A stretch of DNA of 41,733 nt from a virus. The stretch spans positions 1 through 41,733 of the IMG/VR virus record IMGVR_UViG_3300046007_006577; one strand, given 5' to 3'. The notes under the pieces are model-generated. The model saw nothing but the letters and a program-made list of their open reading frames with translations. It did not search any database and was not told where the DNA came from. Below are positions 4,361 to 39,310 of the stretch, piece by piece. A program made the translations under genes and the position numbers. Numbering within the stretch: position 1 is the stretch's first letter; the number at the start of each line of letters is the position of its first letter.

Positions 4361-4788
4361 TGCCGAAGATCGTGTTGGTGACGGGAGGGTTCGATCCCCT
4401 CCACTCGGGACATCTCTCGTACCTCAAGGCTGCGAGTGAGTTGGGTGACCGCCTCGTAGTGGGAGTGAACTCGGACGCATGGCTCACCCGAAAGAAGGGC
4501 AAGCCGTTCCTCCCGTTCTCGGAGAGGGCGCAGATCGTGGAGGCGATCAGATGGGTCTGCCACACGATCCCGTTCAACGACGATGACGGCAGCGCAAAGG
4601 CAGCGATCCTCGCCACCCGAAGGATGTATCCCGATTGGCACATCGTATTCGCCAACGGAGGCGACAGGACCCAAGAGAACATCCCCGAGATGAATGTGGA
4701 CGATGCGAACATCTCCTTCATCTTCGGTGTCGGCGGCGAGGACAAGCGGAACTCCTCAAGTTGGATCCTCAAGACATGGCAAGGATGA
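4360..4788 (+). CDS. Cytidylyltransferase-like nucleotidyltransferase (HxGH)
   Basis: A 142-aa single-domain nucleotidyltransferase. It opens with GGFDPLHSGH (residues 9-18), the phosphate-binding HxGH motif, followed by GVNSDAWL and RAQIVEAI, and has FANGGDRTQENIPE near residue 95. The second block recalls the adenylyltransferase half of HldE/RfaE (ADP-heptose synthesis) and the glycerol-3-phosphate cytidylyltransferases. It would couple a small phosphorylated sugar or alcohol to a nucleotide. It might supply the glycan island downstream, but no heptose kinase or isomerase is seen here. The start ATG overlaps the lysozyme stop by one base, indicating coupling. Confidence 0.8.
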   Translation: MPKIVLVTGGFDPLHSGHLSYLKAASELGDRLVVGVNSDAWLTRKKGKPFLPFSERAQIVEAIRWVCHTIPFNDDDGSAKAAILATRRMYPDWHIVFANGGDRTQENIPEMNVDDANISFIFGVGGEDKRNSSSWILKTWQG

Positions 4789-4792
4789 CTGC

Positions 4793-5539
4793 GTGACCTC
4801 GGAGATCCACCACAACGAGGCTCTCATATTCCTTGAAGCCGAGCCATCCGAGAAGTACGACTTCGTCTATCTCGACCCACCGTACTACTGTCAGAGGGAC
4901 TTCTCGGAGTTCAACGACAGGTGGTCGGGTATTGACGAGTACATGGGCATGCTCTCGCCTGTGTTCAGCGAGGTGCGCCGTGTCCTCAAGCCGCACGGCA
5001 ACATCTGCATCCATGTGGATTGGCATGCCGCCCATCATGTGCGCCTCTGCCTAGACCGAGCGTTCGGTGAGGGCAACTTCCGCAACGAGATCATTTGGTG
5101 CTACGCCTCGGGTGGGGCATCGAAGCGTCACTTCTCACGGAAGCACGACAACCTGTTCGTCTATGCCAAGGATGCCGACCTCTGCCGTTTCAACCTGATC
5201 CGTGAGCCGTATCCCCGTGACTACGGCGACAGGGAGGGCTTCCACCCTGACGGTCGAATAATGAACGATTGGTGGCAGATCGGGATCCTGTCCACGACCG
5301 CCAAGGAGCGGAACGGGTATCCGACGCAGAAACCATTGGAACTTCTTGAGCGTCTGATGAAAGCCTACACGAATGGAGGCGATCTAGTCCTTGACCCCAT
5401 GTGCGGCTCGGGCACCACTTTAGAGGCGGCGTTGCGTCTCGGCAGAAGTTCAGTCGGAGTGGATAAGAACCCTGCGGCGGTTTCGACCGCCAAGGCAAGG
5501 GTCGAGCGGTGCGTGGGTCTGAACGGACTCATGGAATGA
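4793..5539 (+). CDS. DNA methyltransferase, beta class, DPPY type
   Basis: A 248-aa amino-methyltransferase. Catalytic motif IV DPPYY (28-32) comes before the SAM-binding motif I DPMCGSGTT (201-209), the order of beta-class enzymes; DPPY favours N6-adenine over N4-cytosine as target. The TRD region between holds WCYASGGASKRHF and HDNLFVYAKD, typical of the Type III/orphan N6A group. No ATG is in frame; the GTG at 4793 sits 4 nt after the previous stop. The stop overlaps the ATG of a second methyltransferase, so the two are co-translated. No restriction enzyme is present, so this is probably for protecting phage DNA from host restriction or for marking it. Confidence 0.9.
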   Translation: MTSEIHHNEALIFLEAEPSEKYDFVYLDPPYYCQRDFSEFNDRWSGIDEYMGMLSPVFSEVRRVLKPHGNICIHVDWHAAHHVRLCLDRAFGEGNFRNEIIWCYASGGASKRHFSRKHDNLFVYAKDADLCRFNLIREPYPRDYGDREGFHPDGRIMNDWWQIGILSTTAKERNGYPTQKPLELLERLMKAYTNGGDLVLDPMCGSGTTLEAALRLGRSSVGVDKNPAAVSTAKARVERCVGLNGLME

Positions 5540-6603
5540 CCGAAGACTCCCGCTACCGCATCATCGAAGGCGACTGCATCAAGGGAATGAAGACGCTGCC
5601 TGACTGCTGCGTTCACACCTGCATCACCTCGCCGCCGTACTTCGGACTTCGTGACTACGGCAAGGAAGATCAGATCGGTCTTGAGGAGACTCCCGATCAA
5701 TATGTCGCCAAGATGGTCGAGGTGTTTCGTGAGGTTCGGAGGGTTCTCCGTGACGATGGAACCGTGTGGCTGAACTTGGGTGACTCGTACTCCGCAGGAG
5801 GCAGGGGCAAGGGACAGGATGGAAGCATCCAACAGGGAAACAAGGGTTCCATGACGGGAGCCGTGTTCAACTCATGGAAGGTCGAAGGCTTCAAGAACAA
5901 GAACCTCTTGGGCATTCCTTGGCGTGTAGCCTTTGGTTTACAGGCTGACGGTTGGTACTTGAGGCAGGACATCATTTGGTCGAAGCCAAACCCGATGCCC
6001 GAGTCTGTGACCGACCGTTGCACCAAGTCACATGAGTACATATTCCTCCTCACCAAGTCGCAGAAGTACTACTACGACTATGAGGCGATCAAGGAGCCAC
6101 TTGCTGAAGCATCGTTCGGTGGTATTGGCGGCAAACGCAACAAGCGTTCCGTTTGGACTGTGACCACCAAGCCGTTCCGTGGAGCGCACTTCGCCACCTT
6201 CCCGAAGGACTTGATCGAACCTTGTGTCCTTGCAGGTACGAGCGCACATGGGTGTTGCTCCAAGTGCGGTCAACCATACGAGCGTGTGATGGAGAAGACG
6301 GGCGAGTTCCAACGCCGTTGGTCAACCAACAACGCAGAAGGCTCTCCCTACGAGACTCAGTCGAGCATGCAGAAAACCTACAGGACTGCGGGATGGTCTG
6401 TCGATTGTCCCTGTGGATGCAGCGCACCCGTAGTCCCCTGCACGGTGCTTGATCCGTTCACGGGCAGCGGAACCACCTGTGTCGTGGCGTTGAACCACGG
6501 CAGGAAGTTCATCGGCACCGAGTTGAACCCCGAGTACATCAAGATCGCAACCGACAGGATCGCCGACGAGGCACCGATGAACCTCATGGATGTGATGGTG
6601 TGA
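5536..6603 (+). CDS. DNA methyltransferase, SPPY type with Cys cluster
   Basis: A 355-aa site-specific DNA methyltransferase, also beta-class in order. Motif IV is TSPPYFGLRDYG (31-42), which favours N4-cytosine (SPPY) although N6-adenine members exist; motif I is DPFTGSGTT (306-314). Between them a pair of cysteine clusters (GCCSKCG near 240 and CPCGC near 297) looks like a zinc ribbon inserted in or near the target-recognition region. It differs from its upstream neighbour in both catalytic tetrad and size, so the pair is not a duplication and probably modifies two different sites. Its ATG overlaps the upstream stop, and its own stop overlaps the GTG of DNA polymerase. Confidence 0.9.
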   Translation: MTEDSRYRIIEGDCIKGMKTLPDCCVHTCITSPPYFGLRDYGKEDQIGLEETPDQYVAKMVEVFREVRRVLRDDGTVWLNLGDSYSAGGRGKGQDGSIQQGNKGSMTGAVFNSWKVEGFKNKNLLGIPWRVAFGLQADGWYLRQDIIWSKPNPMPESVTDRCTKSHEYIFLLTKSQKYYYDYEAIKEPLAEASFGGIGGKRNKRSVWTVTTKPFRGAHFATFPKDLIEPCVLAGTSAHGCCSKCGQPYERVMEKTGEFQRRWSTNNAEGSPYETQSSMQKTYRTAGWSVDCPCGCSAPVVPCTVLDPFTGSGTTCVVALNHGRKFIGTELNPEYIKIATDRIADEAPMNLMDVMV

Positions 6604-9134
6604 AGCCTTTCTACACCGCCGTCAACACCAAGGGCAGCAGGATCCTCCACAGAGGGTACGACGAGAGCGGTCGGAGGCTCCATGAGTCGCTGACATTTCG
6701 ACCCACGCTCTTCGTGACCACGGGCAAGCCGAAGCCCTCGTCGTGGAGGACAATCGACGGCAAGGCTGTCGATCCCGTGGACTTCGACACCATGTACGAG
6801 GCTAGGCAGTTCTCCTCGGAGTACCGTGGTGTCGGCGGTCTCGGGGTCTACGGCGACATCGACTCGGAGTTTCAGTTCATCGCAGACAGGTACGGCAGCG
6901 AGGGGGAGATGCCATACGATCCCTCGGTGATCCGTGTCCTGTCCCTCGATATTGAGGTCGAGAGCGAGGATGGATTCCCATCCGTTGACGATCCCCGAGA
7001 GAGGGTGAACGCCATCACGCTCATCCAAGGGAGCAAGGTCCACGCTCTCGGGCTCGGCGACTTCTCCGTCGATGGAGTGACATGCCACTCGTTCAACGAC
7101 GAGGCAAGTCTCCTCCACCGATTCCTCGACCTGTGGGAGGAACTCGACCCTGACATCATCACGGGATGGAACGCCCAATTCTACGACATCCCGTACCTGT
7201 ACAACAGGATCAGCAGGGTGCTTGGGAGCAAGGCGGTGAAGCGATTGTCCCCGTGGGGCGAGATCCGCACCCGCAAGGTGGTCGTGATGGACAGGGAGAA
7301 TCAGGTCTACGACCTCGCAGGTATCTCCATACTCGACTACTACGACCTCTACAGGAAGTTCACCTTCGTGACCCGTGAGTCGTACAAGTTGCAGCACATC
7401 GCAATGATCGAACTCGGCGAGGGCAAGATCGACTACTCGGATGTGGGAACCCTCTCGGACCTGTACAAGCAGGACTTTCAGAGGTTCATGGAGTACAACA
7501 TCAAGGACACCAGACTTGTCATCCAACTAGAGGACAAGTTGAGGCTGATCGAACTCGCCCAAGCCCTTGCGTACAGCGCACGGACGAACCTTGACGATGT
7601 CTTCTCGCAGGTGCGGATGTGGGACAGCATCATCTACCACTACCTGCGGACGAAGAGGATCGCCATCCCCCCGAAGCCATCGGTCGAGAAGCGTGAGCAG
7701 TTCGCAGGGGCGTATGTCAAGGAGCCGAAGCCGAACACCTACGAATGGGTGGCATCCTTCGACCTCGACAGCCTCTATCCGCACCTCATCATGCAGTACA
7801 ACCTGTCCCCCGAGACCCTTGTCGAGGAGAGGATCCCCGACATGACTGCGGACACCCTCCTCGCCGAACCCGAGAGGTTCACGGGCGCACTCGCACGGGC
7901 GCACGGGGAGAACCTCTCCGTGGCGGGGAACGGAACCATGTACCGCAGGGACATCCATGGATTCCTGCCCGAACTCATGGAGACGATGTACAGGCAGCGC
8001 AAGGAATACAAGAGGCTCTCGGTGGATGCCAAGGGGTGGCTCAAGAAGAACGCCGACACCGCCTCGCCGCAGCAGGTCCTTGAGAAGAAGAAGGAAGTCA
8101 GCAAGTACCACAACTTCCAACTCGTCCGCAAGGTTCAGTTGAACAGCGCATTCGGTGCGATGGGGAACCAGTACTTCCGCTACTACGACCTTCGCATCGC
8201 AGAAGCGATCACATGGTCGGGCAAGTTGTCGATCAAGTGGATCGAACAGAAGTTGAACCGCTTCCTCAACAAGACATGTGGCACCGAGTCCCACGACTAT
8301 GTGATCGCATCGGACACCGACTCGGTCTACCTCCATCTCGGTCCATTGGTCTCCAAGGTGGTGGGCGACAAGCCCCCGAAGGAGACCGTGCAGTTCCTCA
8401 ACAAGTCCTGCAACGAGATCATCCTGCCCCGCATCTCCAAGTGGTACGGGGAACTGTCGGACACGATGAACGCCTATGCGAACCGCATGAGCATGAAGCG
8501 GGAGAACATCGCCATGCGTGGTCTGTGGGCGGCGAAGAAGCGGTACTGCCTCGCCGTACACATGGGAGAGGACGATGTGTACATGGAGGAGCCCGACATC
8601 AAGGTGACGGGGCTTGAGGTCGTTCGCTCATCGACACCGCAGGTGGTTCGCAGCAGTCTCCATGAGGCTATCAGGCTGATCCTCACCTCCGACGAAGGTG
8701 CGCTGCGCTCGTTCGTGGACCGATTCCACGACGAGTTCATGTCGCTGTCGGTGCATCAGATCTCGTTCCCCCGAGGCTGCAACAACCTTGACGAGTACGC
8801 CGATGCCGCCGCCATCTACAAGAAGTCAACCCCCATCGCAGTCAAGGGCGGTCTCCTGTACAACCACCTCGTCAAGACGAAGAGGCTCACGAAGTCCTAT
8901 CCTCTGATCAGGGAGGGCGACAAGATCAAGTTCTGCTACCTCAAGGAGCCGAACCCGATCCGTGAGCATGTCATCTCCTTCGTGACCGCCCTTCCCGACG
9001 AGTTCGGCTTGGAGCAGTACATCGACAGGGAGACGCAGTTCGACAAGGCTTTCCTTGAGCCGCTCAAGAAACTGCTCGACATCGTCGGGTGGAGCGTGGA
9101 AGACAAGGCTAGCCTCGACACCCTCTTCGGCTGA
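6600..9134 (+). CDS. 43: Family B DNA polymerase, gp43
   Basis: An 844-aa replicative polymerase with proofreading, complete in one frame (T4 gp43 is 898 aa). Exonuclease motifs: Exo I LSLDIEVE with D117 and E119, Exo II GWNAQFYDIPYL, Exo III YNIKDTRLV. Polymerase motifs: A FDLDSLYPHL with D388 and D390, B KVQLNSAFGAMGN, C ASDTDSVYL with D572 and D574. The GTG start at 6600 overlaps the preceding stop. Residues 428-436 (bases 7881-7908) are encoded by tandem ACGGGCGCAC units in a region before RRDIHGFLPE that varies in length among relatives. They resemble the repeats in the helicase and primase genes. The C-terminus ends in LDTLFG, which could be the clamp-binding tail. Confidence 0.97.
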   Translation: MKPFYTAVNTKGSRILHRGYDESGRRLHESLTFRPTLFVTTGKPKPSSWRTIDGKAVDPVDFDTMYEARQFSSEYRGVGGLGVYGDIDSEFQFIADRYGSEGEMPYDPSVIRVLSLDIEVESEDGFPSVDDPRERVNAITLIQGSKVHALGLGDFSVDGVTCHSFNDEASLLHRFLDLWEELDPDIITGWNAQFYDIPYLYNRISRVLGSKAVKRLSPWGEIRTRKVVVMDRENQVYDLAGISILDYYDLYRKFTFVTRESYKLQHIAMIELGEGKIDYSDVGTLSDLYKQDFQRFMEYNIKDTRLVIQLEDKLRLIELAQALAYSARTNLDDVFSQVRMWDSIIYHYLRTKRIAIPPKPSVEKREQFAGAYVKEPKPNTYEWVASFDLDSLYPHLIMQYNLSPETLVEERIPDMTADTLLAEPERFTGALARAHGENLSVAGNGTMYRRDIHGFLPELMETMYRQRKEYKRLSVDAKGWLKKNADTASPQQVLEKKKEVSKYHNFQLVRKVQLNSAFGAMGNQYFRYYDLRIAEAITWSGKLSIKWIEQKLNRFLNKTCGTESHDYVIASDTDSVYLHLGPLVSKVVGDKPPKETVQFLNKSCNEIILPRISKWYGELSDTMNAYANRMSMKRENIAMRGLWAAKKRYCLAVHMGEDDVYMEEPDIKVTGLEVVRSSTPQVVRSSLHEAIRLILTSDEGALRSFVDRFHDEFMSLSVHQISFPRGCNNLDEYADAAAIYKKSTPIAVKGGLLYNHLVKTKRLTKSYPLIREGDKIKFCYLKEPNPIREHVISFVTALPDEFGLEQYIDRETQFDKAFLEPLKKLLDIVGWSVEDKASLDTLFG
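7881..7908 (+). repeat. GGGCGCAC repeat patch inside polymerase gene
   Basis: ACGGGCGCAC, two bases, GCACGGGCGCACGGGG: a tandem of the same unit that builds the larger inserts at 9748, 21881 and 31060. This copy is short and lacks the inverted half, so chance use of Thr-Gly/Ala codons cannot be excluded. Confidence 0.4.
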
Positions 9135-9151: not shown

Positions 9152-9901
9152 ATGCAGCCCATCGGCAAGTTCCTGACTAAGGATGTCCGACATCCCCATG
9201 TCCACCTGTGCTTCGATGACCACTCGGTCTCGCATTGGCACGGGACGAGGGGAATCTTGAAGCGGCACAGGGCTAGGGCGGTCTTCTATGTCGATGGATT
9301 CCATCTCCTCGGCGAGGAGGAGATCGACATGCTCCATGACCTCCGCTCCGATGGTCATGTCATAGGTTGCCACGGAAAGATGCACCGTGACGCTCTCTCC
9401 TACAGCAAGCGGTATGGGATCGACAGGTACATCGATGACGAGGTGATCCCTGCCATGGAGGAGATGGTGGAGGCGGGATTCGACCCCACCCACTTCGCCT
9501 TCCCCTACACCAAGTTCGATGATGCCCTGTTTGCGGAGGTGGATCGGCTGTTCTGCTTCGTCCGCTCGGGAAACGAAGGGACGATTCTCTCAGGTGGCAG
9601 GACCCTGCCTCTGATGTCGATGATGGATACGCAGCGCAAACCCACGGAATCTAGGATTCGTGGCGGGGATCTGAATGGGGCGATTGAAACAATCAGGGCA
9701 GGGGTCGAAGAAGGGGTGAGTCCTGTCATCATTTTCCACGATGTCCGACCCGTGGGCGCACCTGCGCACACGGGTACCCACGCACGGGCGCATGTGACCC
9801 CCGAGGAGTTGGACACCGTGTTGGAGGCGATCACGGACTCGGGGTACTCATACGAGACATTCGACGGTTTGTGTGAGAGTTCCCCTGACATGGACGAGTG
9901 A
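9152..9901 (+). CDS. Polysaccharide deacetylase (NodB/CE4-like)
   Basis: A 249-aa NodB-fold protein. CE4 landmarks: FDD at 21-23 (catalytic base and metal Asp), CHGKMH at 73-78 (the two metal-binding His of the H-x3-H motif), FAFPY near 115 (usual Arg of FPxR/FPYG not evident) and FHDV at 195-198. It would remove N-acetyl groups from an amino-sugar polymer, such as host peptidoglycan, capsule or the phage's own glycan; no signal peptide is visible, so a cytoplasmic or virion role is likelier. Between FHDV and VTPEELD, where relatives are short, residues 199-214 (rich in His, Ala, Thr, Gly) come from a GC-rich hairpin repeat. The arrangement looks like an in-frame insertion. A later in-frame start is possible if the upstream promoter is used. 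Confidence 0.85.
   Translation: MQPIGKFLTKDVRHPHVHLCFDDHSVSHWHGTRGILKRHRARAVFYVDGFHLLGEEEIDMLHDLRSDGHVIGCHGKMHRDALSYSKRYGIDRYIDDEVIPAMEEMVEAGFDPTHFAFPYTKFDDALFAEVDRLFCFVRSGNEGTILSGGRTLPLMSMMDTQRKPTESRIRGGDLNGAIETIRAGVEEGVSPVIIFHDVRPVGAPAHTGTHARAHVTPEELDTVLEAITDSGYSYETFDGLCESSPDMDE
9748..9795 (+). repeat. GC-rich hairpin repeat inserted in deacetylase gene
   Basis: Contains GGGCGCAC, GCGCACACGGG and GCACGGGCGCA units. ACCCGTG (9748-9754) pairs with CACGGGT (9769-9775), and CGTGGG (9751-9756) could instead pair with CCCACG (9777-9782). It encodes residues 198-214 in frame and sits exactly between two conserved blocks of the NodB fold. It belongs to the family also seen in the helicase and primase genes. 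Confidence 0.7.
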
Positions 9902-19633: not shown

Positions 19634-20539
19634 ATGAATGCCATGGTCACAGGTGCGGCGGGCTTCATCGGCTCGCATATGGTCGATCTCCTACTGAACC
19701 ACAGGCACTCGGTTGTCGCCGTAGACAACGAGAGTTCAGAGTCGCATGCCAAGTTTCATTGGAACCCGCTTTGTGATAACAGATTGTCTGATGTTTGCGA
19801 CCTCACGCCACTCGACTTCGACGGTGTGGATGTGGTGTTCCATATGGCGGCTGAAGTCAGCATCCCGAAGTGCATGGCACACCGTGATCAGGCTTTCAGC
19901 ACCAATGTGATCGGAACATGGAATGTCCTCGACTGCGCACAGAAGGCGGGAGTGCGTCGGCTCGTCTTCTCGTCCACCTCGGCGATCTACGGAGTCAGGG
20001 CAAGCGGTTTCTCTCCTCCTGTGAAGGAGACTGATTCCATCGACTGCCCGAACAACTACGCAACGAGCAAGTTCATCGGGGAGCAGTTGTGCAAGCAGTA
20101 CTCTCTTCTCCACGGACTCGACACGGTGTGCCTCAGGTACTTCAATGTCTTCGGCGAGAGACAGGCTGACAGGGGGTCATATAGCCCCGTCATCGCATCG
20201 TTCCTGCGGATGCGAAGGGAAGGCAAGCCCCTCCTCATATTTGGAGATGGTCATCAGTCGAGGGACTATGTCCATGTCTCGGATGTGGTCAGGGCGAACC
20301 TCATGGCGGCTGACCATCCCCACGCCCTCCACGGTGAGGCAGTCAACATCGGAAGTTGGCGGTCTTCGTCGGTACTAGAGATCGCCCGTGTAATATCCCC
20401 CGACGAAAGGTCGATATGCTTCATGCCGAAGCGTGAGGGTGAGGTCAGGCATTCGTTGGCTGACTGTGGCAAGGCTGCTTCCCTGTTCGGTTGGAAGGCA
20501 AAGACGGATGTGATGGATTGGATACGGAATGCAACCTAA
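19634..20539 (+). CDS. UDP-glucose 4-epimerase-like SDR
   Basis: A 301-aa extended SDR of the GalE/nucleotide-sugar epimerase type. TGAAGFIGSH at 6-15 is the canonical NAD loop, DVVFHMAAEVS near 70-80 the substrate-side strand, FSSTSAIYG with the catalytic Ser/Thr, NYATSKF gives the YxxxK pair (Y142, K146), and RYFNVFGERQ is the sugar-nucleotide block. It likely epimerises a UDP- or GDP-sugar for the island's glycosyltransferases. It is the last gene of the island; it overlaps the helicase start by 11 nt, so the island's end is joined exactly onto the replication gene. Confidence 0.9.
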   Translation: MNAMVTGAAGFIGSHMVDLLLNHRHSVVAVDNESSESHAKFHWNPLCDNRLSDVCDLTPLDFDGVDVVFHMAAEVSIPKCMAHRDQAFSTNVIGTWNVLDCAQKAGVRRLVFSSTSAIYGVRASGFSPPVKETDSIDCPNNYATSKFIGEQLCKQYSLLHGLDTVCLRYFNVFGERQADRGSYSPVIASFLRMRREGKPLLIFGDGHQSRDYVHVSDVVRANLMAADHPHALHGEAVNIGSWRSSSVLEIARVISPDERSICFMPKREGEVRHSLADCGKAASLFGWKAKTDVMDWIRNAT

Positions 20540-22004
20540 CACGGACAAGATCGAAGTCGCCATCCTCAGAAGCCTCCTGCACCTGTCGGAGTTCACTCGA
20601 CGGGTGCTTCCCTTTTTGAAGGAAGCCTACTTCCACGATCCCTGCGAGAAGAGGCTGTTCCTCACGATCTCGGAGTTCACCTCCAAGTACAACGCACCGC
20701 CGACCGAGGAGGCACTCAGCATCATCCTCGGTCAGCAGGACGGGATGTCCCAAGGCGAGTACGACGAATGCGTTCGACTTCTGCCTCTCCTTGGCGAGCC
20801 TCAAGAGCATCCCGACCTCCAATGGCTCATCGATCAGACGGAGAAGTTCTGCAAGGACAAGGCGGTCTACAACGCTCTCATGGAGTCCGTCGAACTCCTT
20901 GACGAGAAGCGGTCGAAGGGGAGGTCCAAGGCTGCTATCCCCGAGATCCTCAAGGAAGCCCTCAGTATCTCATTCGATGAACACATCGGTCACGACTTCA
21001 TTGAGGATGCCGAGCGGCGGTACGAGTTCTACCACAAGGTGGAGAAGAAGACACCGTTCGACCTCGACATGTTCAACAAGATCACCAACGGCGGGGTGCC
21101 CGACAAGACCCTCAATGTGATCCTTGCGGGAACTGGTGTAGGCAAGTCCCTGTTCATGTGCCACCACGCCGCCAACTGCCTCTCGCAGAGCAAGAATGTC
21201 CTCTACATCACCTGCGAGATGGCTGAGGAGAGGATCGCCGAGCGCATCGATGCGAACCTCATGGACATCACATTGGATGACCTCAAGAAGTTGCCGATGG
21301 ATGTGTACGCCAAGCGGCTCTCCAAGGTCACGGCGGGGATCACGGGCAAGTTGTTGATCAAGGAGTACCCCACGGCATCGGCGAACGCAGGGCACTTCCG
21401 ACACCTCCTTGACGAACTGCGGCTGAAGAAGGACTTCAAGCCCGACATCATCTTCATCGACTACCTCAACATCTGCGCCTCGGTGAGGTTCAAGCCTGGA
21501 GCGAATGTCAACTCCTACACCTACATCAAGGCGATTGCGGAGGAACTCCGAGGTCTCGCCGTGGAGATGGCGGTGCCGATCTTCACGGCAACACAGACCA
21601 ACCGCTCGGGGTTCGGCAACACGGATGTTGACCTGACCGACACATCCGAGTCGTTCGGACTTCCCGCCACCGCCGACTTCATGTTCGCACTCATCGCCAC
21701 CGAGCAGTTGGACGAACTCGGTCAGGTCATGGTGAAGCAACTCAAGAACCGCTACAACGATGTCGCCACGAACCGAAAGTTCGTGGTCGGAATCGACCGT
21801 GCCAAGATGAAGTTGTTCGATGTCAGCGATCCAACGGCGAACCTCGTCAACGCAGCCGTGAACGACGATGACGATCCCGCCCCCGTGCGCCCACGCCCCC
21901 ACGCACACGGGCGCACGGGCGTGAACGCATGCGCACCCACACGGGCGCACGGGCGCACGGGCGCACGGAAACCACCCATCGATGATGACGATGGATGGAC
22001 CTGA
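20529..22004 (+). CDS. 41: Replicative DNA helicase, gp41 (DnaB-like)
   Basis: A 491-aa hexameric helicase of the DnaB/gp41 family (T4 gp41 475 aa). Walker A is AGTGVGKS (200-207), then YITCEMAEERIAERI (switch/acidic), Walker B IIFIDYLNIC near 310, and TQTNRSGFGN (H3 motif) near 355. It unwinds DNA at the fork 5' to 3' and works with gp61. The C-terminus is unusual: the acidic run DDDD (446-449) is followed by a 34-residue low-complexity insert (450-483, rich in Pro, His, Arg, Thr, Gly) and then a second acidic run DDDDGW. The insert is made of GC-rich tandem repeats with an 11-bp hairpin. The acidic tail was therefore probably contiguous before insertion. Confidence 0.95.
   Translation: MQPNTDKIEVAILRSLLHLSEFTRRVLPFLKEAYFHDPCEKRLFLTISEFTSKYNAPPTEEALSIILGQQDGMSQGEYDECVRLLPLLGEPQEHPDLQWLIDQTEKFCKDKAVYNALMESVELLDEKRSKGRSKAAIPEILKEALSISFDEHIGHDFIEDAERRYEFYHKVEKKTPFDLDMFNKITNGGVPDKTLNVILAGTGVGKSLFMCHHAANCLSQSKNVLYITCEMAEERIAERIDANLMDITLDDLKKLPMDVYAKRLSKVTAGITGKLLIKEYPTASANAGHFRHLLDELRLKKDFKPDIIFIDYLNICASVRFKPGANVNSYTYIKAIAEELRGLAVEMAVPIFTATQTNRSGFGNTDVDLTDTSESFGLPATADFMFALIATEQLDELGQVMVKQLKNRYNDVATNRKFVVGIDRAKMKLFDVSDPTANLVNAAVNDDDDPAPVRPRPHAHGRTGVNACAPTRAHGRTGARKPPIDDDDGWT
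21881..21968 (+). repeat. GC-rich hairpin/tandem repeat inserted in helicase gene
   Basis: The longest copy of the repeat family. CCCGTGCGCCC (21882-21892) and GGGCGCACGGG (21909-21919) form a perfect 11-bp inverted repeat with a 16-nt loop; from 21941 to 21967 follows near-perfect tandem ACGGGCGC/GGGCGCAC. It stays open in the helicase frame and encodes motifs such as AHGRTG twice. It sits between two Asp runs near the protein's C-terminus, where an insertion would be tolerated. Confidence 0.8.
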
Positions 22005-22013
22005 CCTGCACAT

Positions 22014-22087
22014 GGACGGGTGCCTGAATCGGAAAAAGGTGGTCGCTTATAACGGCCCTCATGTGGGTTCGATCCCCACCCCGTCTA
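22014..22087 (+). tRNA. tRNA-Ile (anticodon UAU)
   Basis: A complete cloverleaf. Acceptor stem 22014-22020 (GGACGGG) pairs with 22080-22086 (CCCGTCT, one G-U at the end); U8 is 22021; D stem CCT/AGG with GG in the loop (22031-22032); anticodon stem 22041-22045 with 22053-22057; loop CTTATAA with U33 and anticodon TAT (22048-22050); five-base variable loop; T stem GTGGG/CCCAC with loop TTCGATC (22068-22074). Discriminator A at 22087; CCA is not encoded. The UAU anticodon reads AUA, a codon that appears rare in the GC-rich genes but common in the AT-rich end of the window. Confidence 0.93.
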
Positions 22088-22089
22088 CT

Positions 22090-30776: not shown

Positions 30777-31811
30777 ATGCCTCTGTTTCTCGACACCAAG
30801 TACATCAACATGCTCTCGCCGAAGTTGGAACGCTTCGCATGGAAGAAGCCGAACCATCTCGCCGTATGCAGGTGTCCCATCTGCGGGGACTCCAAGAAGA
30901 ACGGCAACATCTGTAGGTTTTACTTCTACGAGAAGAAGGGGTCGTTCTCCGTCAAGTGCCACAACTGCGACTACGGAGCCTCCCTCGGGTGGTTCCTCAA
31001 AGGGTTCGATGGAAACCTTCACAGGCAGTACACCTTTGAGGTTCTAAAGGAGACGGGGTCGCACACGCACGGACGCACGGGCGCACACACGCCCACGCAC
31101 GGACCCGCACACCCGCATGCCCGTGCGGGGGAGAGCCCGATCCTCAAGGAGATACCGAGGCTCTGCGATATGTCCGATACCCACGAAGCGGTTGTGTGGG
31201 CTAGGAAGAGACGCATACCCACCGAGGCGATGTGCCGCCTCTACTACGCCGATGACTACTCGGAATGGGCGAAGGGCATCGATCCCGAGATCAAGATCCC
31301 ATCCGAGGGCAGGGTTGTCATCCCGATCCTCGACCCCGAGGGGAGGTTGGTGGGTGCCCAAGGCAGAACACTCGTCAAGACGAGCGGCATCCGATACATC
31401 ACCGTCAAGGCTGATAAGGACTCGGACAAGATGTGGTATGGGATGGACAGGGTCGATCCACGAAAGCCCGTGACGGTGGTCGAAGGTCCAATCGACAGCC
31501 TGTTCCTTGACAACGCCGTGGCGATGATCGGTCTGTCGAACGCCCTCAACATACCCGAGAGGCTGAAGGATGCCGAACTCAGGTACGCCATCGACAACGA
31601 GCCCCGAAACCGTCAGGTGGTCGCTGCGATGGAGATGATCGCCGAGAGCAGCCATTCCATCTGCGTTTGGTCGGACAGGGTTGCGGGGTACAAGGACATC
31701 AACGACATGGTCCTCTCGGGCATGACGAGATCCATGATCGAAGCCGAGATCGCAAGAAATTCCCATCGTGGGATCGCTGCACATGTTGCGATCAAGAAGT
31801 GGCATAGATAG
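30777..31811 (+). CDS. 61: DnaG-type primase, gp61
   Basis: A 344-aa primase (T4 gp61 342 aa). The zinc-binding domain has CPIC (C33, C36) and CHNC (C61, C64); the TOPRIM-type catalytic core has VVEGPIDSLFL with E236 (motif IV) and later acidic residues in YAIDNEPRN and CVWSDR-AGYKDINDM. It synthesises RNA primers with the gp41 helicase. Between zinc and catalytic domains, residues 95-118 are a His/Thr/Gly/Ala-rich insert encoded by the GC-rich repeat. I started at ATG 30777 (MPLFLDTKYINML); an upstream in-frame start at 30732 would lack support. The stop TAG lies inside CATAGATA. Confidence 0.93.
   Translation: MPLFLDTKYINMLSPKLERFAWKKPNHLAVCRCPICGDSKKNGNICRFYFYEKKGSFSVKCHNCDYGASLGWFLKGFDGNLHRQYTFEVLKETGSHTHGRTGAHTPTHGPAHPHARAGESPILKEIPRLCDMSDTHEAVVWARKRRIPTEAMCRLYYADDYSEWAKGIDPEIKIPSEGRVVIPILDPEGRLVGAQGRTLVKTSGIRYITVKADKDSDKMWYGMDRVDPRKPVTVVEGPIDSLFLDNAVAMIGLSNALNIPERLKDAELRYAIDNEPRNRQVVAAMEMIAESSHSICVWSDRVAGYKDINDMVLSGMTRSMIEAEIARNSHRGIAAHVAIKKWHR
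31060..31131 (+). repeat. GC-rich hairpin repeat inserted in primase gene
   Basis: Units GCACGGACGCACGGGCGCAC and CCCACGCACGG, with inverted repeat CCCGCAC (31104-31110) / GTGCGGG (31123-31129). It encodes residues 95-118 (including HGRTGAH) in the linker between zinc and TOPRIM domains. Same family as the helicase and deacetylase inserts, but the GGGCGCAC core is read in another frame relative to the protein than in the deacetylase. Confidence 0.8.
31803..31810 (+). promoter_or_regulatory. CATAGATA promoter-like motif
   Basis: CATAGATA overlapping the TAG stop (31809-31811) of primase, 17 nt before the next ATG with CGGAGGA as ribosome site. Second exact copy of the octamer. Confidence 0.45.
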
Positions 31812-32936: not shown

Positions 32937-34505
32937 ATGTCGGGTCGATTTCGCTACATCAAGGACTACCGAGAGGATGAAGATCCTCAGAAGAAGCACC
33001 CGATCAACGAGGAGCCCGATGTTCCGTCAACCCCGAGCAAGGGAGAGGACGGACTCCCAGGCATTCGTGGTCCCCGAGGTCCCAAGGGCGACAAAGGCGA
33101 ACAAGGTCCGCAAGGACTTGTAGGCGAACGAGGCGAACGAGGCGAACGAGGTCTCCAAGGTCTGCATGGACTGAGGGGAGAGCGAGGTGAGCGTGGAGAG
33201 CAAGGTTCCCAAGGTCCGCAAGGTGAGAAGGGAGCCACGGGTTCCCAAGGAGTCCAAGGCGAAAGAGGACTTCAAGGATTGGCAGGGGAAAAGGGAGCGC
33301 AGGGCGAGAGGGGAGATATCGGGGCGCAGGGACCCGAAGGTCCGCAGGGACCTGTTGGCGAACGAGGAGAACGAGGCGAACGGGGAGAGCAAGGTCCCCA
33401 AGGAGCCGAAGGTCCCCAAGGTTTCCAAGGTCCGCAAGGAAACGAAGGTCCCCAAGGTCCCCGTGGAGAGCGTGGGGAAAAGGGAGAGCAAGGCGATCAA
33501 GGAGAGCGAGGCTCTCAAGGCGTTCAAGGAGTTGCAGGACAGGCTGGGCCTATAGGTCCACAAGGTCCGCAAGGCGAGAGAGGTGCCACGGGAGACTCGG
33601 GCGTTCTCTCGGTTCAGTATCCGCTGAAACTCGACCCCGACCGCAAGCATCTCACAATCGATCTGTCGAAGATCAAGCCGACCACGCCGATCCTCTACGA
33701 CGGCGGCGGCGGTCTTGGCGAAGCATTCAAGTTCATCTCCGTGTCGGGTCAGTCGGGTCTGACTGCCGTTCAGTACGACAAGGAGACCCTGACCCTCGTT
33801 GCGGGTAACAACATTACCCTCACGACAGATCCCAACAGCAACTCCATCACGATCAATGGTTCAGGTGGCGGCGGTACAGGTTCGGTTGGCGGCATAACTG
33901 GAGACTATGTCTCGGGAATCAATGGTCTCACGGGCGCACTCGGGCTCACAGTCGGGGGCAACATCACCCTGACCATGACGGGAGCGAACAACAAGACATT
34001 CCGCCTGTATGTCAAGCCCCCCGCCACAGTCAAGGGACAAGCGGGTGCCCTCGCCTTCACCGATACGAACGCTCCATTTGAGGGGGACGGGTCGGATCTC
34101 GGAGCAGACAACGCCCTCAAGTACAACTACCTGTCCGATCTCTCGTTTGAGGCTCCAGGTTCGATCAAGTTCGGCACCACCTTGGCGGGGTCCTATTTGG
34201 AGTTCCCCGATGGCACCACACAGGACACGGCAGCAAAGTGCTGCCCGATTCCAATAGCGACAACGGGATCGACGGGTGTCGCTTCCTTCGATGGGGAGCA
34301 GTTCAATGTCTCCACGACGGGACATGTCACGATAAGGACGGGGATCAAGGCGGGAAACCTCATCGTCTTGGGGTCGAGTCTTATCTTCGGTGTGGGAGGG
34401 ACAGGAGCCTTGCCTGCCCTCGACGGTTCCGCATTGACGGGAGTCGATGCCAAATACCTTCAAGGCAAGACCCCTCGGCAGATCACCGATGGTGGCACAT
34501 TCTGA
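32937..34505 (+). CDS. Collagen-like tail fibre protein
   Basis: A 522-aa fibre. Residues 1-35 are a charged non-collagenous head; 36 to about 222 are some 62 uninterrupted Gly-X-Y triplets rich in GER, GPQ and GEQ, expected to form a triple helix; the rest is a Gly/Thr/Ser-rich beta domain with a 'TGSTGVASFDGEQFNVSTTGHV'-type repeat (quoted in part: TGVASFDGEQF) shared with the next fibres. It ends with LQGKTPRQITDGGTF, a C-terminal motif common in marine T4-like fibres. The collagen DNA includes a (GGCGAACGA)x3 tandem at 33123-33149. Trimeric, external location; likely host attachment or a spacer. Confidence 0.9.
   Translation: MSGRFRYIKDYREDEDPQKKHPINEEPDVPSTPSKGEDGLPGIRGPRGPKGDKGEQGPQGLVGERGERGERGLQGLHGLRGERGERGEQGSQGPQGEKGATGSQGVQGERGLQGLAGEKGAQGERGDIGAQGPEGPQGPVGERGERGERGEQGPQGAEGPQGFQGPQGNEGPQGPRGERGEKGEQGDQGERGSQGVQGVAGQAGPIGPQGPQGERGATGDSGVLSVQYPLKLDPDRKHLTIDLSKIKPTTPILYDGGGGLGEAFKFISVSGQSGLTAVQYDKETLTLVAGNNITLTTDPNSNSITINGSGGGGTGSVGGITGDYVSGINGLTGALGLTVGGNITLTMTGANNKTFRLYVKPPATVKGQAGALAFTDTNAPFEGDGSDLGADNALKYNYLSDLSFEAPGSIKFGTTLAGSYLEFPDGTTQDTAAKCCPIPIATTGSTGVASFDGEQFNVSTTGHVTIRTGIKAGNLIVLGSSLIFGVGGTGALPALDGSALTGVDAKYLQGKTPRQITDGGTF
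33040..33600 (+). repeat. Collagen Gly-X-Y coding repeats
   Basis: Irregular 9-nt periodic DNA (GGNGANCGA, GGTCCNCAAGG units) encoding the Gly-X-Y run. Perfect local tandems such as (GGCGAACGA)x3 at 33123-33149 make length change by slippage in multiples of 9 nt likely; the frame is maintained. Confidence 0.85.
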
Positions 34506-34534: not shown

Positions 34535-36409
34535 ATGCCCCGTGAAAGCACGATAACAGTACTGCGGTCCACCACCACCGATGTCCCAACAGGACTGACC
34601 TTCGGTGAAATTGCGTATTCCGATCTGAACGGTAAGTTCCACATTGGTAAGGGTGATGGAACTAGCCTGTGGATCGGCGCACAGATCACAGCAGGAGACA
34701 TCACCACCAACAGTCAGTACATCGTGCCGACGCAATCGGCGGTCAAGTCCTATGTTGACGGTGTTGTCGGCGGCGGTGGTGCGGTTGTCAACACGGTCAA
34801 CGGCACGGGCGGCAACATCGTTGTCACGGGCGACAACGGTGCCGTGATCAAGGTCACATCGGGAGCGACGAACACCATATCGGCTCGTCTTGCGACCACA
34901 AGCGTCACGGGTGTCGCCTCATTCACTAGCGCAGACTTCACGGTTTCCGCTGTGGGTGCGGTAGGTCTGAAGGATGTTGTCCGCAGCGTCAACGGTCTCA
35001 CAGGCACAGTAACGATCACAGGTGACGGCGGGTCTCTGATCGGTCGCACCAACAACAGTTTCACGAACAGGCTTGCCGACGCATCGGCAACGGGTGTCGC
35101 CTCTTTCAGTTCGACCTACTTCTCGGTTTCCTCGGGCGCAGTAAGCCTTGCCTCGGCATACCAAGCCACGGGTGACACGGTCATCACGGTTGTGGGATCG
35201 GGAATCGCCATCTCGACCTCGGGTAAGACGGACACCCTTTTCAACATCGGTGTCACGGGCTTCAACGGTCTCACGGGAAGCATCACGGTCACAGGTGACG
35301 GCGGCTCGTTGATCGGTCTTGACAACAACAAGTTCACGAACAGGCTTGCGACCACGGGTGTGACAGGTGTCGCCTCGTTCAACGCCACTAGGTTCTCGGT
35401 GACGAACGGTGCCGTTGATCTTGCTGCCGCCTATCAAGCCACAGGCGACACGGTCCAAGCGGGATCGGGAATTGCCATTGGATCGGGCAAGACGATCACA
35501 AACATCGGTGTCACGGGCTTCAACGGTCTCACAGGCAACATCACGGTCACGGGAGATGGTGGATCTCTCGTCGGTCGTGACAACAACAAGTTCACCAACA
35601 GGCTAGCAGACACCTCGGTCACAGGTGTCGCCTCGTTCAACTCGACCTACTTCACGGTTTCTAGCGGTGCGGTGAGCCTCGCATCGGCATACCAAGCCAC
35701 GGGCGACACGGTCATCACTACGGCGGGATCGGGAATTGCCATCTCGACCTCGGGCAAGACGGACACGCTTTTCAACATCGGTGTCACGGGCTTCAATGGA
35801 CTGACAGGCAACATCACGGTCACAGGTGACGGCGGCTCGTTGATCGGTCTTGACAACAACAAGTTCACGAACAGGCTTGCGACAACGGGTGTGACGGGTG
35901 TAGCCTCGTTCAACTCGACTCACTTCTCGGTGTCGAGTGGTGCCGTGTCCTCGACGGGTATCACCGTCAAGGCAAGCACAAGCGACACAGGAACCACGCT
36001 GAATCTCGGTGGAACCCTCACCATCACGGGAACTGCGTCTCAGGTCTCGGTGAGCAGGTCGAACACAGAGTTCACTATCGGTCTTCCGAACGACATCACG
36101 ATCCCTGGCAACCTCACCGTCAATGGAACGGTGGTCACGGCGAATGTCGATTCGTTCGTTGTCGAGGACCCGCTCATCATGCTTGGTACAGGCAACGCAG
36201 CGGACAGCGTTGACCTCGGATTCTACGGTCAGTACACAAGCAGCGGAAAGCGATTCGCAGGAATCTTCAGGGACGCTTCCGACAGCGGCAAGTTCAAGTT
36301 CTTCACGGGACTCTCGGGTGGAGTCGAACCCACCACATTCGTGAACGATTCGGGATCTGGATACACGATGGCAACGGTGGTTGCGAGGATCGACGGCGGA
36401 ACTTTCTGA
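34535..36409 (+). CDS. Repeat-built tail fibre protein 1
   Basis: A 624-aa fibre. The N-terminal 45 residues (MPRESTITVLRSTT...LTFGEIAY...FHIGKGDG) are paralogous to those of the next two fibre genes, consistent with a common attachment or trimerisation head. The middle is a series of about 86-91-residue repeats with FNGLTGSITVTGDGGSLIG, NKFTNRLATTGVTGVASF and AYQATGDTV blocks. The C-terminus has a beta domain (NLTVNGTVVTANVDSFVVEDPLIMLG, quoted in part) resembling T4-like fibre ends, finishing RIDGGTF. Likely a trimeric beta-helical distal or proximal fibre. Repeat DNA is near-identical, so recombination with the next gene is expected. Confidence 0.85.
   Translation: MPRESTITVLRSTTTDVPTGLTFGEIAYSDLNGKFHIGKGDGTSLWIGAQITAGDITTNSQYIVPTQSAVKSYVDGVVGGGGAVVNTVNGTGGNIVVTGDNGAVIKVTSGATNTISARLATTSVTGVASFTSADFTVSAVGAVGLKDVVRSVNGLTGTVTITGDGGSLIGRTNNSFTNRLADASATGVASFSSTYFSVSSGAVSLASAYQATGDTVITVVGSGIAISTSGKTDTLFNIGVTGFNGLTGSITVTGDGGSLIGLDNNKFTNRLATTGVTGVASFNATRFSVTNGAVDLAAAYQATGDTVQAGSGIAIGSGKTITNIGVTGFNGLTGNITVTGDGGSLVGRDNNKFTNRLADTSVTGVASFNSTYFTVSSGAVSLASAYQATGDTVITTAGSGIAISTSGKTDTLFNIGVTGFNGLTGNITVTGDGGSLIGLDNNKFTNRLATTGVTGVASFNSTHFSVSSGAVSSTGITVKASTSDTGTTLNLGGTLTITGTASQVSVSRSNTEFTIGLPNDITIPGNLTVNGTVVTANVDSFVVEDPLIMLGTGNAADSVDLGFYGQYTSSGKRFAGIFRDASDSGKFKFFTGLSGGVEPTTFVNDSGSGYTMATVVARIDGGTF
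34980..35945 (+). repeat. Tandem fibre-coding repeats, about 258-273 nt
   Basis: The anchor GGTGTCACGGGCTTCAA occurs at 35249, 35507 and 35780, giving periods of 258 and 273 nt (86 and 91 codons), with a partial earlier unit from about 34980. Units are close to identical over long blocks and match those in the next gene. Confidence 0.85.
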
Positions 36410-36441
36410 TTCCGTGACGAGAAGGGGATTTTCGTTTCGAT

Positions 36442-39294
36442 ATGGCTCGACAAGAGACAATCAAGATACTTCGATCCGAGGTCCCCTCGGCGACTCCTTC
36501 CCTCACAGCAGGTGAGATCGCCGTCAACATCGCAGACCGCAGACTTTTCGTGGGAGGTACGGGAGGTACCTCCGACAGGGTCACCTTCAGGGACGAACGC
36601 TCGACCGTTTGGTCGGTCAACAGCCTCACGGGCTCGGTGACTCTTGGTGTGGGTCAACTCTCGGATGTGAATCTTGAGGATCCACCCGAGCAATATCAGT
36701 TCCTGCAATGGAACGGAGTTGACGAGTGGAGACCCGCATACGCAGTCACCTCCCTCAACACCCTGATTGGTTCCGTCACGCTCACAGGTGACGGTGGGTC
36801 CCTGATCGGTCGTACTAACAACAGTTTCACCAACAGGACTGCGACCACGGGTGTGACGGGTGTGGCATCGTTCCTGTCAGACCACTTTACGGTGAGTGGA
36901 ACGGGACATGTCAGCAGCAAGGGTGTCATCACGATCAACAACACGGCACCCGATGCGAACGGCAACTTCAATGTTGCGGCTGCGACCGTGGTGACGGGTG
37001 ACGGTGGATCCCTTATCGGAGACGGTGTCGCAATCCGAGCAAGGGTTGCCACTACAGGAATCACGGGTGTCGCTTCCTTCGATTCAGGCGACTTCGCTGT
37101 GAGCCTAGAAGGAGTTGTCACAGTCAAGAATGGCGGAATCGGCAACGCTCAACTTGCGAACTCCTCAATCACCTTCCGTGATTCTGTTCAAACCACAGAA
37201 GTGGCTTCTTTAGGAGATACCTTTACCCTTACAGGTGGACCTGGAATTTCTGTTCGGGAAGTTACTACTGACACATTCGCATTCCAAGGAATAACTGCAA
37301 CAGATAGCGTTCTCGGTGTCGCCTCGTTCAACTCGACCTACTTCACGGTTTCTAATGGTGCCGTTGATCTTGCTGCCGCCTACCAAGCCACAGGTGACAC
37401 GGTCATCACAGTCGCAGGATCAGGCATCGCCATCTCGACCTCGGGCAAAACGGACACCCTTTTCAACATCGGTGTCACGGGAATCGGATTTGGCTCCGAT
37501 GTTGGACTGACGGGCAAGGTCAACATCACGGCAGGATCGAATATCACGATCACCCAATCGGGGAACCTCATCACATTCAGCGGCGTGGCTCAACAGGTAA
37601 CAGCCGTTACGGGTGATGGTGCATCTATTGTCGGCAAGGACAACTCCAACATTACCGCAAGGCTTGCAACCGCAAGTCTGACAGGTGTCGCCTCATTCAA
37701 CTCGACATACTTCTCGGTCGCTAGCACGGGTCATGTGACCCTCGCCTCGGCATACCAAGCCACGGGCGACACGGTCATCACGGTCGCAGGGTCAGGTATT
37801 TCCCTTGCCACCTCGGGTAGGACTGACACCATCTTCAACATCGGTGTCACGGGCTTCAATGGACTGACGGGCAACATCACGGTCACGGGTGATGGTCAAT
37901 CCCTGATCGGTTTTGACAACAACAAGTTCACGAACAGGCTTGCGACCACAAGTCTGACAGGTGTCGCCTCGTTCAACAACACTAGGTTCTCGGTGTCGAA
38001 TGGTGCTGTCGATCTTGCTGCCGCCTACCAAGCCACGGGTGACACAGTCATCACGGTTGCGGGATCAGGCATCGCCATCTCGACCTCGGGCAAGACGGAC
38101 ACCATCTTCAACATCGGTGTCACGGGCTTCAACGGTCTCACGGGCAACATCACGGTCACGGGTGATGGTCAATCCCTGATCGGTTTTGACAACAACAAGT
38201 TCACGAACAGGCTTGCGACCACAAGTCTGACAGGTGTCGCCTCATTCAACTCGACCTACTTCACGGTTTCTAGCGGTGCGGTGAGCCTCGCATCGGCATA
38301 CCAAGCCACGGGCGACACGGTCATCACGGTCGCAGGGTCAGGTATTTCCCTTGCCACCTCGGGTAGGACTGACACCATCTTCAACATCGGTGTCACGGGG
38401 TTCAACGGTCTCACGGGCAACATCACGGTCACGGGTGATGGTCAATCCCTGATCGGTCGTACCAACGACAGATTCACGAACAGGCTTGCGGACACCTCGG
38501 TGACGGGTGTAGCCTCGTTCGATACGAATGCTTTTGTTGTAACCAACGGTCATGTGAGCCTACGAGGTGGTAGTCAGGGCACACTCTGTAGTTCTTACAC
38601 AAATGAGGTTGACTGTGAAAACGATCCCAATCCTTGTTTTTGGTGTAACATAACAAACACATGCTCAAGTACAAATAGTTGTAGTCTGTTTAGTGCCACT
38701 TACAGCGGAGTGGGTGCTTCGGCAAATGCGGACGGCTCGCTCGCCTACCTTTACTTTGATCCAGGAAATCTGACAACAGGTTCATCCACAACGATAGACA
38801 AAGATAGTGACTTTGTTCTTTTCTACGATGCAAGTGAACCTGGGTTGGTAAAGACGAAGAGAGTCAGTCCAAAGCAATTCATCCTTGATAGCGATGCTCT
38901 GTTTGCTAGTAAGACCACGGACTACCTACAGAAAACGAAGAGTGCAACCACTATTGACTACGAGATTGTCACCTCTGCAATTGAGCAGAGTGGAGTCGGT
39001 CTTGTGGTTGCGGCAGAGGCATTCGACTACATCAGCCTCAACACCGTAAAAAGTCTGAACGGTCTGACGGGAGATGTGACCGTCGTTGGAAGCATCAACG
39101 GCTGCACGGGTGCGTTCACGATCACGGGCACGGTGAACGAGGTGGTCGTGTCCGCAGGCATCAACTGCCGAAACATCATCATCGGTCTGCCCGACAATGT
39201 GACCATCCCCTACATCAGCGGCACGGGTGCCACCTTCACAGGAACTGTGAATGCGAACCTGTTCATCGGCTCCGTTGACGGAGGAACCTTCTAA
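36442..39294 (+). CDS. Repeat-built tail fibre protein 2 with Cys-rich insert
   Basis: A 950-aa fibre, longest of the set. The head (MARQETIKILRSEV..LTAGEIAVN..RRLFVGGTGG) is paralogous to neighbouring fibres. Residues about 295-695 hold repeats shared with the previous gene, two of them exactly 273 nt apart. From about residue 712 a cysteine-rich patch (LCSSYTNEVDCENDPNPCFWC, quoted in part: CENDPNPCFWC) resembles a PSI/plexin-like module. Residues 740-850 are a unique AT-richer domain, then a standard end, INGCTGAFTITG..., finishing SVDGGTF. Two AT-rich stretches (around 37170-37310 and 38520-39000) suggest mosaic acquisition. Probably the adhesive distal fibre; host contact is inference. 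Stop TAA in CTAAATA. Confidence 0.85.
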   Translation: MARQETIKILRSEVPSATPSLTAGEIAVNIADRRLFVGGTGGTSDRVTFRDERSTVWSVNSLTGSVTLGVGQLSDVNLEDPPEQYQFLQWNGVDEWRPAYAVTSLNTLIGSVTLTGDGGSLIGRTNNSFTNRTATTGVTGVASFLSDHFTVSGTGHVSSKGVITINNTAPDANGNFNVAAATVVTGDGGSLIGDGVAIRARVATTGITGVASFDSGDFAVSLEGVVTVKNGGIGNAQLANSSITFRDSVQTTEVASLGDTFTLTGGPGISVREVTTDTFAFQGITATDSVLGVASFNSTYFTVSNGAVDLAAAYQATGDTVITVAGSGIAISTSGKTDTLFNIGVTGIGFGSDVGLTGKVNITAGSNITITQSGNLITFSGVAQQVTAVTGDGASIVGKDNSNITARLATASLTGVASFNSTYFSVASTGHVTLASAYQATGDTVITVAGSGISLATSGRTDTIFNIGVTGFNGLTGNITVTGDGQSLIGFDNNKFTNRLATTSLTGVASFNNTRFSVSNGAVDLAAAYQATGDTVITVAGSGIAISTSGKTDTIFNIGVTGFNGLTGNITVTGDGQSLIGFDNNKFTNRLATTSLTGVASFNSTYFTVSSGAVSLASAYQATGDTVITVAGSGISLATSGRTDTIFNIGVTGFNGLTGNITVTGDGQSLIGRTNDRFTNRLADTSVTGVASFDTNAFVVTNGHVSLRGGSQGTLCSSYTNEVDCENDPNPCFWCNITNTCSSTNSCSLFSATYSGVGASANADGSLAYLYFDPGNLTTGSSTTIDKDSDFVLFYDASEPGLVKTKRVSPKQFILDSDALFASKTTDYLQKTKSATTIDYEIVTSAIEQSGVGLVVAAEAFDYISLNTVKSLNGLTGDVTVVGSINGCTGAFTITGTVNEVVVSAGINCRNIIIGLPDNVTIPYISGTGATFTGTVNANLFIGSVDGGTF
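37310..38520 (+). repeat. 273-nt tandem fibre-coding repeats
   Basis: GGTGTCACGGG anchors at 37471, 37843, 38116 and 38389; the last three are spaced exactly 273 nt (91 codons). Long blocks are identical between units (for example around 37890 and 38160) and to the preceding gene, implying recent duplication or gene conversion. Confidence 0.9.
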
Positions 39295-39297
39295 ATA
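39291..39297 (+). promoter_or_regulatory. CTAAATA late-promoter-like motif
   Basis: CTAAATA followed by G, containing the TAA stop of the previous fibre, 13 nt before the ATG of the next. Third copy fused to a stop codon. Confidence 0.55.
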
Positions 39298-39310
39298 GAG
39301 GTACTTCGAT

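Follow-up and report, generated by a model that had tools for sequence, protein, structure and literature searches.

Here we report that genes of a T4-type phage and of its relatives carry GC-rich, T-poor tracts in which purines alternate with C, and that the third codon bases of these tracts obey a parity of 2 nt and follow neither the codon frame nor the codon usage of the genome. The window, i.e. the whole stretch of DNA that was analysed, is a virus contig of 41.7 kb. Its replication genes are of the T4 type and code for a DnaB-like helicase, a primase and a family-B DNA polymerase; a polysaccharide deacetylase is encoded as well (Table 1). In our judgement the chances are about even that the tracts represent selected alternating purine-pyrimidine DNA, which is tolerated where the protein is disordered.

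Homologues were drawn from IMG/VR, and larger pieces of the relatives (G001–G006, G010, G012, G016–G018, G021 and G022) were then fetched. G001 (3300005805_000092) is nearly identical to the window, and G002 (3300014720_000036) matches it at ~77–87% over most of the length of G002. The contigs of the relatives are partial and represent uncultured phages of the T4-like group; the related genomes are not independent of each other. Among cultured relatives, none was closer than ~61% for the helicase and ~37% for the primase, and there was no match for the deacetylase. Literature searches returned nothing direct on this combination of features. The tracts were first spotted by their composition, and the later tests were made on five protein-anchored sites: the helicase tail, the primase linker, a deacetylase segment after the HD motif, and linkers in two proteins designated 'wndl' and 'msd'. 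Three of these sites are in the window and two are on contigs of relatives. The wndl protein, encoded outside the window, is a weak match to phrog_23027; the same family search gave no match for the msd protein, which is also encoded outside the window.

Table 1. Genes and tracts of the window, with positions in the 41.7-kb contig.
Feature	Position	Strand	Evidence or remark
N4/N6 DNA methyltransferase (MTase2)	5509..6603	+	Link to tract presence is a correlation only
DNA polymerase family B (gp43-like)	6600..9134	+	Pfam search
Short lineage-specific copy in DNA polymerase B	7880..7908	+	Present in window, G001 and L084; absent, at the same length, in G002 and L099
Polysaccharide deacetylase family protein	9152..9901	+	Pfam Polysacc_deac_1, 7.3e-12
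Deacetylase tract encoding the conserved peptide PVGAPAHTGTHARAHV; not an insert	9748..9802	+	RY24e3 9748-9797
DnaB-like replicative helicase (gp41-like)	20529..22004	+	Pfam DnaB_C, 4.9e-18; phrog_19, 3e-122
Tract in C-terminal tail of the DnaB/gp41-like helicase	21876..21977	+	RY24e3 run 21884-21969
DNA primase (gp61-like)	30777..31811	+	phrog_47, 2.7e-64
Tract in primase linker, between N-terminal zinc-binding part and catalytic part	31054..31131	+	RY24e3 31059-31129

The five sites carry tracts throughout a clade of genomes with 39–57% GC. Most tracts are T-poor and have a GC content of 71–88% (the weakest, in the primase of G017, has ~65%), and this range still holds for most tracts of the relatives with 39–48% GC. 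The peptides at most of the five sites differ among the relatives; the DNA pattern persists. The proportion of T at third bases of the tracts is 5% in AT-rich and 7% in GC-rich genomes, with the same codon usage in both, compared with a background of ~22–27% and 15–23%, respectively, in windows of ordinary composition.

The first-pass annotation had described repeats built from two octamers in the deacetylase, helicase, primase and polymerase genes, and the coordinates, identities and clustering of the octamers at these four places were confirmed. The window contains 10 copies of GGGCGCAC (1.46 expected) and 21 copies of CACGGGCG (1.98 expected), and the comparison with shuffles that the annotation had proposed gave clear enrichment of both, with none of 100 shuffles reaching the observed count. 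When the protein is kept fixed, the helicase tract has 9 octamers vs 0.3–1.2 under synonymous models based on codon usage, forbidden words or Markov chains, whereas genes outside the tracts have 10 vs 8.2 expected; the similarity is therefore a DNA-level and tract-specific one. The octamer count of the primase is weak by itself (P 0.03–0.32). Reading of the core in more than one frame was borne out. The supposed absence of stop codons from all forward frames holds for the repeat unit, but one frame of the helicase tract meets a TGA; the description of the hosts as replication genes was not confirmed either, since two further tract sites lie in relatives' proteins of unknown function. Synonymous identity between the window and G002 places the tracts among the best windows; it was dropped as sole evidence because the tracts are not the only high windows.

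Within the tracts, every even lag gives a high autocorrelation and every odd lag a low one, and the highest value is reached at lag 8. The lag-8 signal has a z-score of 6.1 against synonymous re-draws, a null that mis-framed some tracts and to which the parity test is preferable. In the parity test, only codon positions 1 and 2 were used to fix the phase, and the free third base was scored. One parity class consists of A and G (0.34/0.52), the other of C (0.76) with some G (0.16); G and C are favoured beyond the purine/pyrimidine class alone. Purines occupied the third position at 250 of the 283 sites of purine parity and at 37 of the 213 sites of C parity. The 426 parity matches compare with 351±7 after permutation within amino acids (z≈11), and each of the five loci is significant separately (P 0.0002–0.026). 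The effect was also present in genomes mostly outside the first scan (154 matches vs 127±4), with one genome per subclade (z 9.0) and in AT-rich genomes only (z 5.7). Windows rich in the same residues (AGRHTP) elsewhere in the same genomes match at 0.51–0.54, vs 0.50–0.52 after permutation, which is at chance level; the idea that the context of Gly/Ala/Arg/His/Thr/Pro-rich peptides generally produces the effect was therefore rejected. Of the three best of these windows, two are primase tracts of G004 and G005 that had been missed by the anchor. A sixth alternating GC-rich segment (score 23–26) occurs at a shared place in two relatives (G018:25915-25974 and G021:19828-19887).

Substitutions at four-fold sites were counted in three independent genome pairs. 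There were 5 transversions vs 39.3 expected (P 1.5e-14), and 9 transitions vs 17.5 expected (P 0.03), which is a mild suppression; this test used degenerate codons conserved between the members of a pair (n=123 codon pairs), with the genome-wide rate as expectation. Since transversions are lost much more than transitions, the purine/pyrimidine class is conserved much more than base identity. A role at the protein level, which the first-pass annotation had offered as an alternative, is insufficient to account for the third-base parity and the transversion suppression; a purely protein-level linker cannot yield such a parity.

The sites differ in their protein context. The primase is 343–345 aa long in relatives with at least 57% identity, with a linker of 19–24 aa; residues 95–113 have a predicted pLDDT <50, and the primase tract is predicted to fall in a disordered linker. 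Across all 16 homologues, the length of the deacetylase segment is almost constant, and most of them share the core PAHTGTHARAH; the segment follows the 2-nt parity despite its fixed length and conserved peptide (P 0.003). G006 has kept this peptide in AT-rich codons, with a partial alternation that is forced by the peptide, and peptide and DNA pattern are therefore separable. The C-terminal tail of the helicase is variable in length (491 aa for the protein of the window, 472–485 aa in relatives) and contains internal direct repeats that are read in different frames; the structure model (overall pLDDT 61) is too poor to judge the tail. Among near-identical strains, the helicase tract shows no indels, and the only change relative to G002 comprises 6 nt; G001 and G002 differ in the number of PT and CCCACG units. 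One of several breakpoints between the window and G001 lies ~30 nt after the helicase tract, yet at the gene end, and recombination at tracts was rejected as a candidate. A tRNA-Ile(TAT) gene directly follows the helicase gene (22004–22088); G001 has an extra gene of 184 aa between the helicase and this point.

The tracts had been interpreted as inserted hairpins of the REP/MITE type, which is not tenable. Deacetylase and primase have near-equal lengths among homologues, and only the helicase tail is longer; alignment, suggested as a way to see clean absence, instead revealed homologous segments of near-equal length. The annotation had stated that a lack of homologues without the inserts would speak against it, and this partly occurred: the segment is present in homologues at the protein level and frequently also in the form of a tract. 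The homologues define no insertion boundary around which target-site duplications could lie. RNA-fold z-scores against dinucleotide shuffles were −2.8, −1.0 and −0.5 for the tracts of the window and +1.0, −1.9 and −1.5 for those of relatives; because these values are inconsistent, the inverted repeats come largely with the composition, and over this range (−2.8 to +1.0) neither terminal inverted repeats nor a hairpin beyond composition were found. What stood was the more general proposal of a DNA-level feature that coding sequence accommodates at linkers and tails and that is read in more than one frame. Rickettsia palindromic elements are repeats tolerated inside protein genes, and the tracts resemble them in being a family of DNA-level repeats that several unrelated coding sequences tolerate. 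They differ in lacking discrete insertion, defined termini and a consistent palindrome, and in positions that are conserved over deep divergence; they share words and the lattice, but no alignable element with ends. A mobile element of either type would account for the related GC-rich copies that are scattered over several genes and contain inverted repeats, and for the new copy in the polymerase, but the equal lengths of the homologues, the absence of clean insertions and shared termini, and folding that is not consistently stronger than that of shuffled sequences led to the rejection of an inserted mobile hairpin and make such an origin hardly credible.

The gain and loss of tracts can be followed in individual lineages. 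At the polymerase site, G002 and the outgroup L099 have FAPALASARER, then N or D, then LSV, whereas the window, G001 and L084 have FTGALARAHGENLSV of equal length, with two copies each of GGGCGCAC and CACGGGCG. The polymerase copy is recent, and no net insertion accompanied its origin. Its absence from a close relative indicates that not every tract is maintained. G006 and L009 lack the helicase-tail tract, and G006 also lacks the primase tract; both are nested among tract bearers in the helicase tree with moderate support (94/96 for the wider group, 80/77 inside), as is G006 in the polymerase tree (83/95). Upstream of the polymerase, two neighbouring genes for N4/N6 DNA methyltransferases occupy 4694–6603. 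The second of them, MTase2, was found in those tract-bearing genomes whose contig includes the region and was not found in the tract-poor G006; G012, which is outside the clade, has an MTase2 homologue and no tracts. As a correlation based on one event, the association of MTase2 with the tracts is only a lead.

The patterns RY12, RY18e2 and RY24e3 are alternating purine-pyrimidine patterns that promote Z-DNA and are reported to be generally suppressed in prokaryotic genomes (PMC4060949). RY24e3, defined as at least 24 nt of alternating R/Y with at most 3 errors (PMC4060949), is present in all tracts of the window and in most tracts of the relatives. The three longest matches of the window are the three main tracts, and their cover exceeds the mean of the synonymous null (P 0.0003–0.004) in helicase (86 nt vs 15), primase (71 vs 12) and deacetylase (50 vs 16); the polymerase copy has a match of 26 nt (P 0.06). 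Short alternating runs are below codon-shuffled levels genome-wide. The tracts resemble Z-DNA-promoting patterns also in their GC-richness and their CG and CA steps, but are concentrated at fixed coding sites with synonymous positions adjusted to them. Strict alternation is broken at about 30% of the lattice positions (GGG, CCC), and the potential to form Z-DNA is lowered by these breaks. Z-DNA propensity would be the simplest physical reason for the pattern, weakened by these frequent interruptions. DRT3 makes poly-(dCdA)/(dTdG) DNA with Z potential in the context of phage defence (PMC13174585). This is likewise alternating purine-pyrimidine DNA, but it is the product of a host reverse transcriptase system, whereas the tracts are encoded in phage genes.

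The three main features of the window are strand-specific, T-poor, GC-rich segments of alternating purine/C with periods of 2 and 8 nt, kept at fixed places in genes (linkers, tails and one short conserved peptide). The target of selection would be the alternation of purines and pyrimidines in the DNA (or mRNA). The most plausible cause would be DNA that readily leaves the B form (Z-prone) or a protein reader that senses its shape, and the segments, about one per 5–19 kb, may serve as topological or protein-recognition sites. Genes could carry such DNA because T-free coding DNA forms no stop codon in any forward frame, and proteins would tolerate it because peptides of A/G/H/P/R/T are presumably harmless in disordered regions. 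A more specific version, which we regard as rather unlikely, holds that Z-prone or shape-read elements are set in coding DNA by synonymous choice and recognised by a trans-acting reader; it draws on the putative loss of the helicase tract by G006 and L009 and of the primase tract by G006, which also lacks MTase2.

Alternatively, the tracts may be self-renewing simple-sequence DNA without function, in which octamer or dinucleotide units of the GCACGGGC type arise through slippage, short duplications or copying from one tract to another wherever the protein sets no constraint, and T-free units survive because they create neither stops nor forbidden restriction words. We consider this possible, although somewhat improbable. 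Tandem units as in a minisatellite are present (3.6 copies of CACGGGCG at 21940–21968 in the helicase tract, two of a 22-nt unit in the primase tract, weaker ones elsewhere), but copy-number variation of the helicase tract was not found among close strains. The autocorrelation at lag 8 and even lags, the out-of-frame direct repeats of the helicase tail, the differences in unit number between G001 and G002, the new polymerase copy in one lineage, polarised by the outgroup, and arrays of 3–5 copies of GCACGGGC in 23 bacterial contigs and in the AT-rich virus contig L180 all fit this explanation. The array in L180 (330–418; CACGGGCG) is in a 42% GC contig that is probably unrelated, and no long open frame covers it; as a genome scan yielded scattered short arrays in unrelated bacteria, the repeat was rejected as a host marker. 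The tracts also resemble cryptically simple or tandem-repeat linker DNA in their low complexity with periods of 8 and 2, their location in linkers and their changes in unit number, but differ in the conserved purine/pyrimidine class of synonymous sites, a composition independent of genome GC and the fixed length of the deacetylase segment. Slippage accounts for the low complexity, for the octamer and for the new copy, but not for the parity, which even the peptide-conserving deacetylase segment obeys, nor for the persistence of GC-rich tracts in genomes of 39–48% GC, the predominant loss of transversions or the lack of indels between near-identical strains. Selection on alternating DNA (or mRNA) fits parity, GC independence and transversion loss better than slippage does, and homogenising copying between tracts could mimic constraint.

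An element at the RNA level, i.e. nearly U-free mRNA selected for structure, stability or ribosome behaviour, appears improbable: every coding tract is T-poor on the sense strand and folding of the helicase tract is stronger than that of its shuffled versions (z −2.8), but the fold scores are inconsistent among tracts and the alternation has no obvious RNA rationale. We find it very doubtful that the tracts are a by-product of restriction-site avoidance in Gly/Arg/His-rich peptides. The tracts of the window contain none of 24 avoided words, vs ~17 occurrences expected from codon usage, and the tracts of G018 and G021 contain CGCG, of which both genomes keep many sites (measured in G021). However, synonymous helicase tracts that obey the words average 0.46 octamers vs 9 observed, an order-6 Markov model gives 1.2, and similar peptides elsewhere are without parity effect; constrained synonymous sampling based on codon usage and word avoidance failed to reproduce the tracts.

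Restriction-site avoidance is a known strategy (PMC6286503), and the number of words avoided at once in these genomes is striking. ACGT and AGCT are at or near zero (0–3 vs 73–259 expected) in all ten genomes tabulated (the window and relatives), and CCGG, CGCG, GGCC, GTCGAC, CGATCG, CTGCAG, TTCGAA, TCATGA, CACGAG, GACGAC, GACGCC and CACTG are near zero in lineage-specific sets (scope: window, G001–G006, G012, G016–G017, G021 and G022). Other genes of the window (32937–34505 and 34535–40960) code for a collagen-like protein of GxY repeats and for fibre-like proteins that contain internal repeats of 273 bp.

Synonymous sites are usually taken to reflect codon usage, mRNA structure or short motifs. 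In this phage clade, several genes have fixed sites at which a two-base rhythm of the DNA overlies the three-base code and substitutions that change the base class are measurably suppressed. If the rhythm results from a mutational or copying process, this process is an unusually regular one. If it results from selection, the tracts would be a clear and testable case of DNA shape moulding protein linkers, with peptides that are partly a consequence of the DNA; and if a trans-acting reader exists, they would constitute a code of DNA structure within genes that serves phage replication, packaging or defence evasion.
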